Assembly (NCBI GenBank): GCA_020831485.1
Contig: JAFIGG010000039.1
Coordinates: forward strand, 1-33,237
Direction: 5' to 3'
Source: Opitutales bacterium
GTDB lineage: Bacteria; Verrucomicrobiota; Verrucomicrobiia; Opitutales; Oceanipulchritudinaceae
DNA length: 33,237 nt
Part shown: positions 22,095 to 31,097 of the stretch, piece by piece
How the letters are laid out: every line of letters begins with the position of its first letter
Position numbering within the stretch: the first letter of the stretch is position 1
Notes under the pieces: generated by a model
Told to the model about the DNA's origin: nothing
The model's database searches: none
Seen by the model: the letters and a program-made list of their open reading frames with translations, nothing else
Made by a program: the position numbers and the translations under genes

Positions 22095-24104
22095 ATGACG
22101 ACCTCTGGAGACACCACGCTGGATCCATCGCTTCCGGTTACCGAACTCGCCTGCGCCTGCCACGGCAGCGACGAGCAGCCAGCGGAGCCGCGCGACCGCT
22201 TTGTCTTTAAGCTGGCGATCTGCCTCGCCCTTGCCGGCCAGGGCATGGTGGTCGGCCTGGGCTACAACAACGCCCGCCTTGCGGGCGAAGGGCCGACTCC
22301 TTTCGGCGCGGCCTACTGGGGCATTCACGGTTTTCTAATTTTCACCGTCGTGGTGGCGCTGCTGCTGTTTGGGCGCACACTGCTGGTCGAAACCTGGAAC
22401 AACCTCAGCCGCGGCCGCATTTCGGTCGAGTCACTGTTTATGCTCAGCCTTCTCGGCGCCTTCACTGGCTCCGTTATCGCCACCGCTACGGCGGCCGCCA
22501 GCGTCTATTACGAAGTCGTCGTTGTTGTGCTACTGATTTACAGCCTCGGCAAATGGATGGGACGAATTCAGCGCGACAAAGCCCGCGGGGCAGTTTCCTC
22601 CCTGCGTTCGGTGTTCTCCGTCGCCAGCCGGATTCAGACAGATGGAGCGAGTGAGCGCGTCAGCGTCAACCGGATCCGCATCGGCGAGCAGATTCAGGTG
22701 CAACCGGGCGAACCAATTCCCTTAGACGGCAGAATTTTAATAGGAGAAGCATACATTCGCGAAACCGCCTTGACCGGGGAACTGAACCCGGTTTCACGCG
22801 CCGCGGGCGACGCCGTGCAAGCCGGATCCTGGTCGGTCGATGGCGACCTGCGGATCGAGGTTGGCCGGGACCAATCCGGACGCCGGGCCCTGGACCGCAT
22901 GCTCGAAATGGTCGAAAGCGCACGCCAGTCCCCTTCCCAGCTCCAGCAGCAGGCAGACCGCATCATGGTCTGGTTTGTGCCGCTGGTGGCTCTGGTCAGC
23001 CTGGCAACCCTGCTGTTCTGGCTCTGGCTGCAACCGATCTGGTGGGTGGCCCTTTTCAACAGCATGGCCGTGCTGCTGGTCGCCTGCCCCTGCGCGCTCG
23101 GACTGGCGATGCCGGTCGGGCTGGCGCGCGGACTGTATGCGCTCAGCCAGCTGGGTATCCACTCACGCAGCGGGCGCCTGCTCGACGCCCTCGCCACCAC
23201 CGACCGCATCGTTTTCGACAAAACCGGCACCCTCAGCGAAGAAGAACTCGAAGCCCGCACCGTGCACTTCAGTGCCGACTGGCAAGCGCGCCAGCGCGAG
23301 CTACTGGACACCCTCGCCTCCCTCGAAGGCATCAGCCAACACCCGGTTGCCCGGGCCCTAGCCAAACTGCGCAAAGGCCCGCGCAAGGAAGTCGAGGAGT
23401 TTCATGAATTTCCCGGTAAAGGCGTCGAAGGCCGGGTTGAAGGACTGCGAATCCGTGCCGGCGAACCCTCATGGTTTGGCGCTGAAACCCGTGACTGGAT
23501 GCAGAGCCGAACCACCACGAACAGTGGCGGCAAAGGCAAGAAGCAGATCCTGGTCAGCGTCAACGATCAGCCCGCAGCCCTCGTCCTGCTTGAGGAAGCC
23601 TGGCGCTCCGATACCCTCAGCGCACTGGAAGAACTCAAGCAACTCGGCATCCGCTGCGACGTCCTCACAGGAGACCCTCAACAGGCCGCCGGTTTACCCG
23701 CAGGGCTGCCTATCGAATCCGGACTTCTGCCCGAGGCCAAAGCCGAGCGAGTGCGCAGTTGGAAGACCGAACACCCGCGCCTAGTCTACGTCGGCGATGG
23801 CATCAACGATGCTGCCGCCATGGCCGAAGCGCCTGTATCCATAGCAATGGCCAACGCTGCCCCGTTGACCCAGTCCACCTCCGACGCCCTGCTAATGGGG
23901 GCCAAGCTCGAACCCCTGATCCTCGGTATTCGGCAATCCCGCAAAATCCGTAACCGGCTGCAGGGCAACATGACTTATGCACTCATTTACAACGTATTCG
24001 GCATGGGCCTCGCGGCCGCCGGCATGCTGCACCCTGTCGTCGCCGCGCTGATCATGGTGGTGTCCAGCGCCTGGGTTTCCTGGAGGGCTCTCAATGTCCA
24101 CTGA
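22095..24104 (+). CDS. Copper-type P1B ATPase without HMA domain (CcoI-like candidate)
   Basis: A 669-residue P-type ATPase. TGE lies in the actuator domain (ALTGELNP), CPC is at 331-333, DKTGT begins at Asp375, HP is at 416-417 and GDGIND follows. YN in the seventh span and MVVSS in the last span suggest Cu(I). Unlike the 6388 gene it has no HMA domain; instead a short N-terminus has Cys20-Ala-Cys22-His23. This is reminiscent of copper ATPases that load cytochrome oxidase (CcoI/FixI), though no oxidase genes are nearby. Its 3' end overlaps nadD by 11 nt. Zinc or other metals are less likely given the TM motifs. Confidence 0.88.
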   Translation: MTTSGDTTLDPSLPVTELACACHGSDEQPAEPRDRFVFKLAICLALAGQGMVVGLGYNNARLAGEGPTPFGAAYWGIHGFLIFTVVVALLLFGRTLLVETWNNLSRGRISVESLFMLSLLGAFTGSVIATATAAASVYYEVVVVVLLIYSLGKWMGRIQRDKARGAVSSLRSVFSVASRIQTDGASERVSVNRIRIGEQIQVQPGEPIPLDGRILIGEAYIRETALTGELNPVSRAAGDAVQAGSWSVDGDLRIEVGRDQSGRRALDRMLEMVESARQSPSQLQQQADRIMVWFVPLVALVSLATLLFWLWLQPIWWVALFNSMAVLLVACPCALGLAMPVGLARGLYALSQLGIHSRSGRLLDALATTDRIVFDKTGTLSEEELEARTVHFSADWQARQRELLDTLASLEGISQHPVARALAKLRKGPRKEVEEFHEFPGKGVEGRVEGLRIRAGEPSWFGAETRDWMQSRTTTNSGGKGKKQILVSVNDQPAALVLLEEAWRSDTLSALEELKQLGIRCDVLTGDPQQAAGLPAGLPIESGLLPEAKAERVRSWKTEHPRLVYVGDGINDAAAMAEAPVSIAMANAAPLTQSTSDALLMGAKLEPLILGIRQSRKIRNRLQGNMTYALIYNVFGMGLAAAGMLHPVVAALIMVVSSAWVSWRALNVH

Positions 24105-24717
24105 GCCCAACAAAGCAATCCGGCCTCCGCAACGCCTCGGGCTTTTCGGCGGCAGCTTTGACCCGATTCACCGCGGCCATCGGCTGATGGCCGAGACGGC
24201 ACTCGAACAAGCTGGGCTGGACGCCGTCTGGTTCATTCCGGCAGCTCAGAGCCCGCTAAAAGGCAGCCGTCCACAGGCCGACGACCATGACCGCCTGGCC
24301 ATGATCCGCGCGGCGATCCGGGGCCGGCCAAAGCTGAATGTTTGGGAGGGCGAACTGCAACTGCCTCCGCCCAGTTACTCGCTGCGCACCGTTGAGGCCA
24401 TTCGCGCGGAACAAGCCGACACCGACCTCTACTGGCTGCTCGGAGCCGACCAATTTACCCAACTGGAGCAGTGGTGGCGAATTGAAAAACTCGTTGAATT
24501 GGTCCGCTTCCTTGTGTGCGTGAGGCCTGGAAGCGTCGTAAAGGCGCCAGCGTTGCCCGGGCTGCGCTGGCAGGCGATCGAAAATGAACCAATCGACCTC
24601 GCTTCCAGCCAGATTCGCGAGCGCATTCAAACAGGAAAGTCAGTTGACAATCAGCTCGATCCGGATGTATTTAATTGGATCAAGCATAAGCAACTCTACG
24701 GATATAGCGCACAATGA
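24094..24717 (+). CDS. nadD: Nicotinate-nucleotide adenylyltransferase NadD
   Basis: The 207-residue nucleotidyltransferase begins GLFGGSFDPIHRGH, the ATP-binding (H/T)xGH motif region of NadD. FIPAAQSPLK, WLLGADQF and WWRIEKL follow in family order, and SSQIRERI near the end is the second ATP motif. It makes deamido-NAD from nicotinate mononucleotide. The start overlaps the ATPase by 11 nt; rsfS begins 1 nt after its stop. The nadD-rsfS pair is a conserved arrangement in bacteria. Confidence 0.94.
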   Translation: MSTEPNKAIRPPQRLGLFGGSFDPIHRGHRLMAETALEQAGLDAVWFIPAAQSPLKGSRPQADDHDRLAMIRAAIRGRPKLNVWEGELQLPPPSYSLRTVEAIRAEQADTDLYWLLGADQFTQLEQWWRIEKLVELVRFLVCVRPGSVVKAPALPGLRWQAIENEPIDLASSQIRERIQTGKSVDNQLDPDVFNWIKHKQLYGYSAQ

Positions 24718-26711: not shown

Positions 26712-27653
26712 TTAGCATTCCAAAGACTTGACAGCTTTGGAAAAGTCGTGTGGCGGATCTACCTGAAAATTCAAATCCTGCTGGGACACGGGGTGCCGGA
26801 ACGTAATTTGGGCGGCATGGAGCATTACTCTGGGAAATTCGCAGGGGGAGGTTTTCGACCGGTATCCATAGAGGCTGTCGCCGGCCAGAGGATGGCCGAT
26901 GTGCGCCATGTGAACGCGAATCTGGTGGGTTCGCCCGGTGAAAATGTCGACGTCGACCAGTGCCACCTTATCCGAGGCGTAACTGGCGAGCAGGTGGTAG
27001 CGACTGTGAGAGGGGCGGCCATCGGATCGCACGGCCATCCGGGTTCTCTGGACCGGGTGGCGACCGATGGGTTCGATGATGTCAGCCGTGGCGGGCTGTG
27101 GCCGGCCCATCACGAGTGCTCGGTAGGTTTTCCCGACCTTGCGTTCGGCGAATTGGCGGGCCAGGCCGCTAAAGGCTGCATCGCTCTTGGCAACGACTAT
27201 TAGCCCACTGGTTTCTTTGTCGAGACGATGAACGATTCCGGGCCGTTCAGTGCCGCCAATACCGCTCAGAGCTCCCTTGCAATGGTGCAGTAAGGCGTGC
27301 ACGAGGGTGTCGGGTCCGGTGCCATTGCCAGGGTGCACGACCATTCCGCAGGCTTTGTTGATGACCAGCAAGTCCTCGTCCTCAAAAACCACGTCGAGAG
27401 GAATCGCCACCGGCGTCAAGTCCAGCGGCTCGGGCGGAGGAACTGTAAATTGAATCGTATCGCCTGGCCGAACCTTGTCGCTCTGCGAAAGCGATTCGTC
27501 CTCGCGCCAGACACGACCAACCGCGAACAACTTTTGCAAACGCGAGCGGGAAAACTGCGGGAAGGCTTGGGCCAGGGCCTTATCGGCGCGTTCCGCACGC
27601 CGACCATCGGCGATCGTCAGTGACCACTCGGACGGCTCAGTCGGCTCGGTCAT
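26712..27653 (-). CDS. RluA/RluD-family pseudouridine synthase
   Basis: The 313-residue protein has an N-terminal S4 RNA-binding domain (ADKALAQAFPQFSRSRLQKLF). The catalytic block HRLDKETSGLIVVAKSD holds the nucleophilic Asp, and RTHQIRVHMAHIGHPLAGD is the C-terminal signature. RluD makes pseudouridines in helix 69 of 23S rRNA; the exact target here is not certain. ATG 27653 overlaps the deaminase stop by one base (TGATG), so the two are coupled. The open frame upstream to 27704 lies inside the deaminase gene. Confidence 0.93.
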   Translation of the reverse strand: MTEPTEPSEWSLTIADGRRAERADKALAQAFPQFSRSRLQKLFAVGRVWREDESLSQSDKVRPGDTIQFTVPPPEPLDLTPVAIPLDVVFEDEDLLVINKACGMVVHPGNGTGPDTLVHALLHHCKGALSGIGGTERPGIVHRLDKETSGLIVVAKSDAAFSGLARQFAERKVGKTYRALVMGRPQPATADIIEPIGRHPVQRTRMAVRSDGRPSHSRYHLLASYASDKVALVDVDIFTGRTHQIRVHMAHIGHPLAGDSLYGYRSKTSPCEFPRVMLHAAQITFRHPVSQQDLNFQVDPPHDFSKAVKSLEC

Positions 27654-28666
27654 CAGCGGCCCTTGCGGTAGGCATCCAGGCAGTCCCGTACTTCCTGTAG
27701 CCAAGTGTCTTTCAATGACTTGTCGACCAAGGCTTGTTCGAAGCCATTGGACGCCAGGACCGCCAGTTCATCGGCACTGAATTCGAGCGACTCATGCAGT
27801 GCCATGTATTCGTCTTTCAGGGTATTGCCAAACGAGATGGGGTCGTCCGTGCTAATGGTGCAGGGAATGCCTGCGGACAGCAGCTGCCGAATCGGGTGCG
27901 CCTCCATCGAAGGCACCACACCCAGTTTCAGATTGCTGATAGGGCATTCATCCATACGCACACCGGCCGCAGCCAGACGGGGCAGAATATCGGGATCTTC
28001 TGCAGCCCGAACTCCGTGCTGGATCCGGCTGACACCCAGTTCCTCGACCACCCGCAGAACAAATTCAGGGCCCATGAATTCACCGGCATGCGCCTTGGTG
28101 AACTTACCATTGGCCCGGGCCCGTTCCCAAAGGTCAAAGGCCCAGTCCTCAAGAGGCGTTTCCTCCGCGCCGTGCAAATCCAGTCCGTCGAGTTCCGGCC
28201 AGTGAATGCTGTCCTCAATAAATCCCCGCGATCGATCGGTGTAACCGTCGTGGTGAATACCCATGAACACGCGCACCTCCATCCCGGGCGGGCTCGCTTG
28301 CTTGATTGCACGTGCCACTTGCTGTCCGTCGAGTCCGAAGTGTTCGACGACACCACTGGCGAAACTGGTTTCCAGGTAGCGCACATTCTGCTCATCTTTA
28401 AGTCGGCTCAGAATGCGTTTGGCCGCAATGTGGTAACGCTCGGGACTTTGATACCAGGCCCCGGCCATATCCAGCAGCTCGGTTTCGAAGGCGGCGAACG
28501 ACTGGAAGCGATAATTCTTATCCCAAGAGGCCGGTGGACTCGAAAACCGGCCTGGCTCCAGCTCATTGATCAATTCCCAGGGCAGCGCCCCTTCGATGTG
28601 CAGGTGGGTCTCGGGTTTGGGCAGGCGTTGGATGAAATCAGCGATCGACAAATGTTCGGTGGGCAT
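27653..28666 (-). CDS. Adenosine deaminase family protein
   Basis: A 337-residue metal-dependent TIM-barrel hydrolase. KPETHLHIEGAL holds the first HxH (His21, His23), HAGE near residue 195 the catalytic Glu, IQHG a further His and STDDP the last metal Asp. CPISNLKLG is the family CPxSN block. It should deaminate adenosine or adenine (to inosine or hypoxanthine); the STDDP context does not decide between the two. hpt elsewhere in the window could use the product. It is 24 bp after the aminopeptidase stop and 1 nt overlaps the RluD-type gene. Confidence 0.87.
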   Translation of the reverse strand: MPTEHLSIADFIQRLPKPETHLHIEGALPWELINELEPGRFSSPPASWDKNYRFQSFAAFETELLDMAGAWYQSPERYHIAAKRILSRLKDEQNVRYLETSFASGVVEHFGLDGQQVARAIKQASPPGMEVRVFMGIHHDGYTDRSRGFIEDSIHWPELDGLDLHGAEETPLEDWAFDLWERARANGKFTKAHAGEFMGPEFVLRVVEELGVSRIQHGVRAAEDPDILPRLAAAGVRMDECPISNLKLGVVPSMEAHPIRQLLSAGIPCTISTDDPISFGNTLKDEYMALHESLEFSADELAVLASNGFEQALVDKSLKDTWLQEVRDCLDAYRKGR

Positions 28667-28690
28667 AGACTGAATGACTACGAAGAGGAA

Positions 28691-29806
28691 TCACCCCAAC
28701 AGGTATTCCGGATTCAACTTGTGCAGCGACTTGGGGACAAACAGGCCGTCCTTGCGGATCAACTTACCGTCAAACCAGATCTCACCGCCACCGTATTCAG
28801 GCCGCTGGATATTGACGATGTCCCAATGGATCTGTGAGCGGTTACCGTTGTCCGCCAGCCCTTCATAAGCCTGCCCCGGAGTGAAATGGAAACTACCGGC
28901 AATCTTCTCATCAAAAAGGATATCACGCATAGGTTCCTTGATATGCGGATTAAACCCTATCGCAAATTCGCCGATGTAGCGCGCGCCCTCATCGCTGTCG
29001 AGGATCTGCTTGAGTTTGCGCTGATCGCCGGTGCAGCTGGCTTTAACAATGCGGCCTTCTGAAAACTCAAACCGCACGTTGTCAAAAGAAACACCCTGAT
29101 AAACAGTAGGCGCATTGTAAGTCACTACGCCCTCCACGCTCTTGCGCACCGGTGCAGTGAAAACCTCACCATCCGGGATGTTGTAGGTGCCGGCACACAT
29201 CACACTCTCAATGCCTTTGATGGAAAATCGCAGATCGGTGCCGGGGCCCTTGAGCTCGACTTTGTCCGTGCGGTCCATCAGGCGTTTCAGCGCCCTCTGA
29301 CCGGGCAGCATGCGCGCGTAATCCATGCAGCAGACATCGAAGAAAAAGTCTTCGAATTTTTCCGTGCTCGAAAGCGACTGCTGTGCCATAGACGGTGTCG
29401 GCCAGCGCAGCACCACCCACTTTGTCTTCCCGACCCGCCAGTTTTGCACTGGGCGCATTTGGCTCATGGCCACCTGCATTTTCTTCGTCGGGACGTCGGA
29501 AGTCTCAAAAATATTCAGAGAACCGCGCAGCGCGATGTAAGCATCCATATCCTTCATCTGGGACAGCTCGTGCTTTGCCAGAGTCGCGTATTGGTGTTCA
29601 TTGGCCCCCATCAGCAATTCACGTCCAATTCGACTGTGGTTCAGTTTTACAAAGGGAATGCCCTTGCGCTTCCGCACTGAACGAATCAAGGCCACAACGA
29701 TGTCGTCCGGGACGTCGAAGGCGTCAATCAGCACTTTTTCACCGCGCTTGAGTGAGATGGAATAGCCGGTCAGGTTGTCGGCGAGAATTGCGTAACGGGG
29801 ATCCAT
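28691..29806 (-). CDS. M29-family aminopeptidase
   Basis: The 371-residue protein matches thermophilic-type M29 aminopeptidases (AmpS/PepS). The metal-ligand segments are [14 protein letters not shown] (Glu), [13 protein letters not shown] (Glu), [11 protein letters not shown] (His) and QIHWDIV (His, Asp). It removes N-terminal residues from peptides, in the cytoplasm since no signal peptide is present. It sits 27 bp after the NMP-kinase gene on the same strand and is followed by the deaminase, so a run of catabolic or housekeeping genes is likely. The start at ATG 29806 ([12 protein letters not shown]) fits the family. Confidence 0.9.
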
Positions 29807-29833: not shown

Positions 29834-31042
29834 TTAACCGCGACGGATCACGGAGCCTTTGAAGTGAATACTGATGCGAAAGATTTTCTTTCGGCGGGTG
29901 AATATGCGCCCGGTCTCCAAATCAACGCGGTCCGGAACCTCTTCCTGACGAACATCCACGGCGGCGTGATAGCCGCGCTCAGAGAATATATCAATCAGCA
30001 TGGCCAGCGCGTTCATGTCGTCGAATAGAGCATCTTCTGTATTGATGTAGGCGCGGCCGGAAATCGCGTGACGAAGAACGATCGGCATGATCTTTTCGTC
30101 GATAAAATCAACCACCCGCACAAATAGAGCTTTGTCCTGAGTGGCATAATTCGCTAGACGTTCCACCAGCTCCTGACGGGCATGCACGAGGATGGACGCG
30201 GCGACGGGAACCCGGGCGATGGTGTCGTAAACCTCCTGATCCAACTCCAGCGAGCTCTGGTATTTCAGCTCATTAATAATCCGGCGCTGAACCTCTTCTA
30301 TCGTCTCCTGCGCATTGATGAAGTGGTAGTAAAAAATCTCCCGCAGGGTCGTGAGGGAATCAAAGGTGATCTCCTTGAAGGTTCGGTAACGGTTGCGGGC
30401 CGCTTCGACGCTGAGGTCGGTCTTGCGAATCTCCATGAGTTCACCGGTTCCGGTGATCTCAACCCGCTTGTTGTGCTCCTGCGCTTTGCGCCCGCGCTTC
30501 AGCTGACGGTCTACGGAGACCGACTCATCGACGTAAAGCACAACAATGTGAAAAATGGGTTTATGAAAGCGGGAAGATTTTTCCGTTCCCAGGTAGCGGG
30601 CCCGCAGGTCGGTGAGTTTCTGATAGAAAAGCTTTAAACACTCAACCTGAACTTGGGTCCGTGGAAAGCCATCCACTACCACGCCGGTAGCGCAGGAGGG
30701 TTCCATCAACTGCCGGATCAGCAGGGACGTCACTTCCCTATCTCCCACCATCATTCCGGCATCCTTCAGGCGTTTGGCTTCCGGACTATTCAGCAAATCG
30801 GAAATAACGATGGGTTTGGCCGTGAGGCCACAATAGTCCATGATGAAGCGGGTCTGCGTGCCCTTACCGGCACCGGGAGCGCCGTTGAGCCAGAAGATTT
30901 CACGCGGAAACGTGAGATTCTCTTCGCCATAATCCTCAACCAGTTCGTTCCAAACCGAATTGAAAATAAGCTGCGCATCTTTGATCTCGAGGTCCAGGGT
31001 CTTGGGCGCCCCCGCGTTATTGGGATTTTGAGACTGTTCCAT
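29834..31042 (-). CDS. Adenylate-kinase-like NMP kinase with a C-terminal tail of about 145 residues
   Basis: A 402-residue protein, nearly twice the usual adenylate kinase length. The P-loop GAPGAGKGT is at 54-62, DGFPRT at 124-129 (nucleotide binding) and RQLKRGRKA near 179 (LID start). The LID lacks the zinc Cys set and is short. A leader of about 45 residues precedes the kinase, and residues beyond about 258 form an extra region with helices (VAASILVHARQELVERLANYA) and a beta-rich end (KKIFRISIHFKGSVI). The tail has no motif I recognise. I chose ATG 31042; GTG 31048 is also possible. It may be a main adenylate kinase or a relative with a regulatory tail. Confidence 0.87.
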   Translation of the reverse strand: MEQSQNPNNAGAPKTLDLEIKDAQLIFNSVWNELVEDYGEENLTFPREIFWLNGAPGAGKGTQTRFIMDYCGLTAKPIVISDLLNSPEAKRLKDAGMMVGDREVTSLLIRQLMEPSCATGVVVDGFPRTQVQVECLKLFYQKLTDLRARYLGTEKSSRFHKPIFHIVVLYVDESVSVDRQLKRGRKAQEHNKRVEITGTGELMEIRKTDLSVEAARNRYRTFKEITFDSLTTLREIFYYHFINAQETIEEVQRRIINELKYQSSLELDQEVYDTIARVPVAASILVHARQELVERLANYATQDKALFVRVVDFIDEKIMPIVLRHAISGRAYINTEDALFDDMNALAMLIDIFSERGYHAAVDVRQEEVPDRVDLETGRIFTRRKKIFRISIHFKGSVIRRG

Positions 31043-31097
31043 CGTCACCCTAGCCCTACCGAAACAAAGGACTACTTGGCAAGGTAGAAGCTTGTTG

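Follow-up and report, generated by a model that had tools for sequence, protein, structure and literature searches.

Adenylate kinase (ADK), one of the most conserved enzymes of bacteria, is usually regarded as essential, and the locus described here raises the question of what an ADK-like protein with a long extra C-terminal region (the tail) does, and whether such a protein can be the ADK of its lineage. The locus lies in a window of 33,237 nucleotides, the whole stretch of DNA that was analysed, from an Opitutales bacterium. The gene runs from 29834 to 31048 on the minus strand and encodes a divergent ADK-like kinase with a C-terminal domain, 404 aa in length with a GTG start; an alternative start, an ATG, lies two codons inside the GTG at 31042. 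The reading frame described in an initial annotation was borne out, the length being 404 aa and not the 402 given there.

The downstream neighbour is an aminopeptidase-like gene (28691..29806, minus strand), the product of which presumably resembles an M29-type aminopeptidase and which also sits next to the kinase in a number of related loci, including the tail-less locus L060. When the neighbourhood of related loci was compared, a deaminase-like gene was also considered (27653..28666, minus strand), its product being, we assume, similar to adenosine/adenine deaminase. Across 26712-29806 of the window the order kinase, aminopeptidase-like, deaminase-like, pseudouridine-synthase-like (this last a presumptive name, from sequence) is common to L004, L008, L018 and the tail-less L060, and it is partly kept in further families. 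Copies of the kinase gene with a broken frame are found in two related assemblies (L018 and G004:C91), reflecting either sequencing error or decay.

The kinase core, residues 46-262 (30263..30913, minus strand), has the adenylate kinase fold, as seen both with PF00406 and when a model is compared with the PDB. In Pfam the ADK family PF00406 covers residues 55-140 at 41.6 bits, above its cut-off of 26.8, and the adk models of NCBIfam align to residues 54-262, all of them far under their cut-offs (TIGR01351 scores 58.1 bits against a cut-off of 168 and the best equivalog 55.6 against 187). There are 91 matches to PDB sequences and the 60 of these that are listed all fall on kinase residues. A full-length AlphaFold2 model built from 15 sequences (mean pLDDT 82.7, pTM 0.74) has the ADK fold over approximately residues 46-266 with a mixed alpha/beta region after it, and the best structural match to it in the PDB is 4pzl (Z 16.2, rmsd 3.3 over 191 aligned residues, covering 49-263 of the model). 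The model also contains a conserved extra N-terminal helix at residues 14-40, a feature absent from the initial annotation; this acidic region (residues 14-45, 30914..31009, minus strand) lies outside the ADK fold and is kept in tail-less homologues. The window protein belongs to the ADK fold family but falls outside NCBI's definition of the standard Adk group (TIGR01351 and PRK00279-type models).

An alignment of 77 sequences, 53 tailed and 24 tail-less, has identical residues in all rows at positions 62, 130, 134, 181, 185, 208, 211 and 220. The first of these lies in the P-loop GAPGAGKGT (residues 56-64, 30857..30883, minus strand) and the second in DGFPRT (residues 126-131, 30656..30673, minus strand), and the alignment places K62 on E. 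coli K13 and R130 on E. coli R88, both of them present in 77/77 sequences; the RKTD of the LID side (residues 208-211, 30416..30427, minus strand) contains the invariant R208 and D211. The remaining invariant arginines were placed with R119, R123, R156 and R167 by alignment and motif, and we take positions 181, 185, 208 and 220 to be their respective equivalents, the E. coli numbering past residue 98 being assumed. The pairing of R208 with R156 rests on the R-x-x-D pattern because MAFFT shifts the R208 motif by one.

Where the protein departs from E. coli ADK is in the NMP-binding stretch (residues 79-106, 30731..30814, minus strand), which runs from the P-loop helix to DAG and is 7 residues shorter. 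The standard bacterial Adk is recognised by an STGDxLR motif with the AMP-site R36, and this is not conserved in the family of the window protein, the equivalent position 87 being R in 1/77 sequences and K in 15/77. Position 95 is K in 59/77 and so is not invariant either, and a basic residue occurs at 92 or 93 in 71/77, which at a guess from the sequence might stand in for R36. The residues R36, R88 and R119 are covered in passages of PMC4325324.

Since the AMP-site arginine is not conserved, the substrate could differ from AMP. The protein would then phosphorylate a different nucleotide or a small phosphate compound, with AMP handled elsewhere by a PPK2-type or unrecognised kinase and with the loss of standard ADK in the Opitutales a separate event. 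Such a reading draws on the altered position 87 and the shortened NMP stretch, yet the residues that handle ATP and phosphate are fully kept, and taken with the genome distributions discussed below we consider it unlikely.

The initial annotation had described an ADK-like protein with an unassigned additional domain at its C-terminus, of mixed helix and strand and without a known motif, and this description has stood: the ADK fold extends to approximately residue 262 and a conserved tail of approximately 142 residues lies beyond it. The domain boundary at approximately 262 is also where natural tail-less homologues stop. The C-terminal domain (residues 263-404, 29837..30262, minus strand) belongs to no sequence-recognised family. 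In the full model, in which the alpha/beta region begins after approximately residue 266, the tail consists of helices at 292-304 and 306-326, a strand at 331-337, a helix at 345-355 and a long beta-hairpin with strands at 360-375 and 382-396, and when it is modelled alone (model m59e2627b467f, pLDDT 80, pTM 0.73) the same order of elements is obtained. From the model and the alignment together, the hairpin (29861..29971, minus strand) bears the conserved basic residues R385, K387 and R391, and the protein ends in IRRG (residues 401-404, 29837..29848, minus strand), of which I401, R402 and R403 are present in at least 98% of the 53 tailed rows. The tail is conserved to about the same degree as the core, with mean pairwise identities of 60.5% and 61.1% respectively among the 53 tailed sequences.

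Searches of Pfam, NCBIfam and PDB sequences, single-sequence and profile alike, gave no credible match to the tail: searched by themselves, the last 144 residues have no Pfam match at E<=1, and a tail profile matches no PDB sequence at E<=10. The sole NCBIfam match, TIGR04471, reaches 15.9 bits where the cut-off is 355 (E 0.0069), a chance-level result that was rejected as the identity of the tail, and Pfam matches obtained with single members (E 0.045-0.19) were likewise taken as chance.

It had been considered that the tail might be an artefact of two genes fused in this one assembly. When the tail alone was used as query it was found in 75/387 Verrucomicrobiota genomes, each time in an open frame of at least 399 aa. 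The same fusion is found by tblastn in 15/15 related loci (one of them L018, left out of the alignment for its frame break) and by manual count in 35/141 genomes of the class, and because it recurs in this way both an assembly artefact and a fusion confined to one genome are ruled out.

Not all members of the family carry the tail. Of the 62 low-scoring family matches, 24 were inspected as tail-less; their frames terminate between 3 and 15 residues after position 258, at a stop codon each time and not because a contig runs out. The others are inferred to be tail-less from score, and one of the 62, in G392, is cut by a contig end. Three further sequences that are cut by contig ends or partial (L163, L164 and L168) were excluded from the tree and the counts. 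In L060 the same three downstream neighbours as in the window are present without a tail, and therefore the tail coding is gone from the same place there. A whole-alignment search of 30 genomes, tail-less ones included, did not locate the tail as a separate match. Families with genomes of 0.7-1.1 Mb often have tail-less forms, which are found also in genomes of 1.6-3.1 Mb, as judged by score with 24 inspected. The tree requires at least two changes of tail state and has long branches joining the tail-less rows; an arrangement that groups the tailed with the tail-less f1 rows was not rejected by the AU test (p-AU 0.84, with a likelihood 31.5 higher). One genome of 0.8 Mb has two tail-less family copies side by side (G189:C2:22998-23591 and 23768-24358).

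As homologues without the tail exist, some in genomes where no other ADK was found (e.g. G020), the tail is not needed for the basic job of the kinase, whatever that is. One explanation of the tail is that it is purely a structural or oligomerisation element that stabilises a divergent kinase. The mean pairwise identity of the core is 43% in the 24 tail-less sequences against 61% in the 53 tailed ones, as if core and tail constrained each other, and many of the tail-less homologues come from small genomes; faster evolution of tail-less cores is, however, equally expected from genome reduction or from lineage age alone, and a purely structural tail would seem an improbable, if reasonable, explanation.

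Whether this protein serves as the ADK of its lineage can be approached through the distribution of standard ADK, a strong match to which was defined as PF00406 at E<=3e-20. The divergent family is present in 320/372 Opitutales genomes and a strong PF00406 match in 61/372; the family occurs without strong ADK in 286 genomes, single-contig genomes included, together with it in 34, whilst 27 have strong ADK only and 25 have neither. The 27 are made up of 17 genomes in family f17, 8 in f65, and G030 and G454. In most of the 34 with both, which belong to f1 and f14, the ADK is a two-domain or a single frame, and two of them, G019 and G204, have partial ADK frames only. If only genomes at least 90% complete and at most 5% contaminated are considered, 208/231 have the family and 227/231 some PF00406 match. 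In a draw across the class, counted manually, strong ADK was found in 4/23 Opitutales compared with 114/118 other genomes, those outside the order without it being G069, G101, G147 and G152. Of 14 known genomes, 12 or 13 were positive in the search control.

The single-contig genomes G020, G058, G149, G180, G230 and G329 have one PF00406 match each, and where this was placed (G020 and G180) it is the divergent family; that of G020 is a tail-less member and its only ADK-type match, and the general kinase model PF13207 also found only the divergent family locus in this genome. Another single-contig genome, G219 of f17, has neither a PF00406 match nor a copy of the divergent family, being either ADK-less or affected by a masked or missing stretch, and an absent match is therefore no proof of replacement. 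Genomes of f14 contain a second ADK-like frame, short at 158-185 aa (e.g. G076:C2:925836-926141 and G119:C1:2433509-2433811), which matches only approximately positions 17-118 of PF00406.

The window's own genome had been flagged as one to be checked for a second adk, and one was found, a two-domain ADK cut by the contig edge (C35:1-1131, L001), so the divergent kinase is not the sole ADK there and the genome is one of the 34 that have both. The first half of the L001 protein is standard and the second half degenerate, with K to R in the P-loop and DGFPR changed to KGFPR; the second-half patterns G-x-PGSGRGS and KGFPR are present in 7 of the 8 related frames L097-L104, L103 being the one in which they were not found.

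Some PPK2 proteins can phosphorylate AMP, and PPK2 is present in 15 of 20 Opitutales genomes that were checked, having not been found in G020, G442, G022, G174 and G177. This would accord with a different substrate for the divergent kinase and AMP handled by another enzyme, as would the coexistence of the family with strong ADK in 34/320 carriers inside the order and in 19/23 carriers outside it (9/12 in one draw and 10/11 in another); from the latter the family may have begun with another role. Against this, G020 and the small drafts G022, G174 and G177 keep the family without strong ADK or PPK2.

The reading that we consider probable is that the window protein is a divergent NMP kinase which makes ADP from AMP and ATP, acts as the ADK of most Opitutales and carries a dispensable accessory tail; the fold, the invariant residues and the genome distribution are observed, and both the AMP kinase reaction and an essential role are inferred. 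Under this proposal the core would bind ATP at the P-loop, an NMP, most likely AMP, would sit in the remodelled pocket, and phosphate transfer would be carried out by the conserved arginines, so that in most Opitutales the divergent kinase would keep AMP, ADP and ATP in balance. The tail would be an accessory domain with its own fold that the basic reaction does not require. A wider proposal is put forward more tentatively, as one that could well prove wrong: that in the Opitutales the near-universal Adk was replaced by a divergent ADK whose AMP site is changed and whose tail is new and lineage-specific, that the tail adds a second role in docking to nucleic acid or a partner, and that it was later shed in several lineages with small genomes, which left tail-less forms as natural controls.

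The initial annotation suggested that the tail may link energy charge to another function. Its job may be docking or regulation by way of the hairpin, with its basic residues, and the terminal IRRG, and there is a faint indication that what it docks on is perhaps nucleic acid or another subunit. A specific form of this idea gives the tail an Alba-like fold that binds nucleic acid and so delivers the kinase to RNA or DNA. Foldseek matches the tail to Alba 2h9u with a probability of 1.00 (TM 0.55 by target length, E 0.014), with Rpp20/Rpp25, Pop6/Pop7 and SpoVS also among its matches, and Alba-type chains account for many of the highest VIA rows, with Z 3.7-4.7 (2h9u itself gives Z 4.6, rmsd 4.3 and 87 aligned); furthermore the conserved basic residues R385, K387, R391, R402 and R403 are near the hairpin. 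However, Z values under 8 are of the size that common arrangements give, and other folds score as well: the VIA list is headed by a Rep protein (Z 5.2) and the Foldseek list by a methyltransferase. Pfam Alba has no match among 15 tails, and hhalign gives probabilities of 0.3% for Alba and 0.8% for SpoVS, a weak test as the targets had two sequences each. Overall the tail has no excess of basic residues, with 21 K/R against 23 D/E, and its two matches in a viral library that pass E 0.001 are both to unnamed proteins. A nucleic-acid-binding tail of this kind strikes us as distinctly improbable, docking or regulation being the broader suggestion.

A mobile origin of the kinase gene was also considered and rejected, no full-length relative having been found among viral, plasmid or phage records. 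A single-protein query of viral contigs gave no relative, and among 55 plasmid and 8 phage records none covered 80% of the query. An alignment query of viral contigs gave 29 ADK-like kinases, none matching past residue 265; these are distant relatives, 24-29% identical, on 29 viral contigs (L124-L152).

A search of a library of open-licence papers gave no description of a divergent tailed ADK. If the proposed role is correct, an entire order depends on a divergent ADK whose AMP site is altered and which has an additional domain, and would serve as a natural experiment on what ADK truly requires; the natural occurrence of tailed and tail-less forms permits a direct test of what the tail contributes. 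It would also matter wherever adk is called missing in an Opitutales genome or is used as a marker.

Compared with known systems, the window protein shares with E. coli Adk (1ake, PF00406) the fold over 46-266, the P-loop, DGFPRT and the catalytic arginines; it differs in the NMP stretch that is shorter by 7 residues, in the unconserved R36, and in having both an extra N-terminal helix and an extra C-terminal domain. The short kinases of the UMP-CMP kinase and AK1 type (1tev, 7e9v, 2bwj) are a similar structural match at Z 15.6-15.9, yet TIGR01359 scores only 27.2 bits against a cut-off of 207.6 and the window protein has extra domains. The tail resembles the Alba, Rpp20-Rpp25 and SpoVS fold in its order helix-strand-helix-hairpin and gives weak structural matches to it, with Z under 8 and no support from sequence. 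That a protein of ADK fold can do more than one job has a precedent in AK6/hCINAP, which has a second role in ribosome assembly according to PMC4974663.
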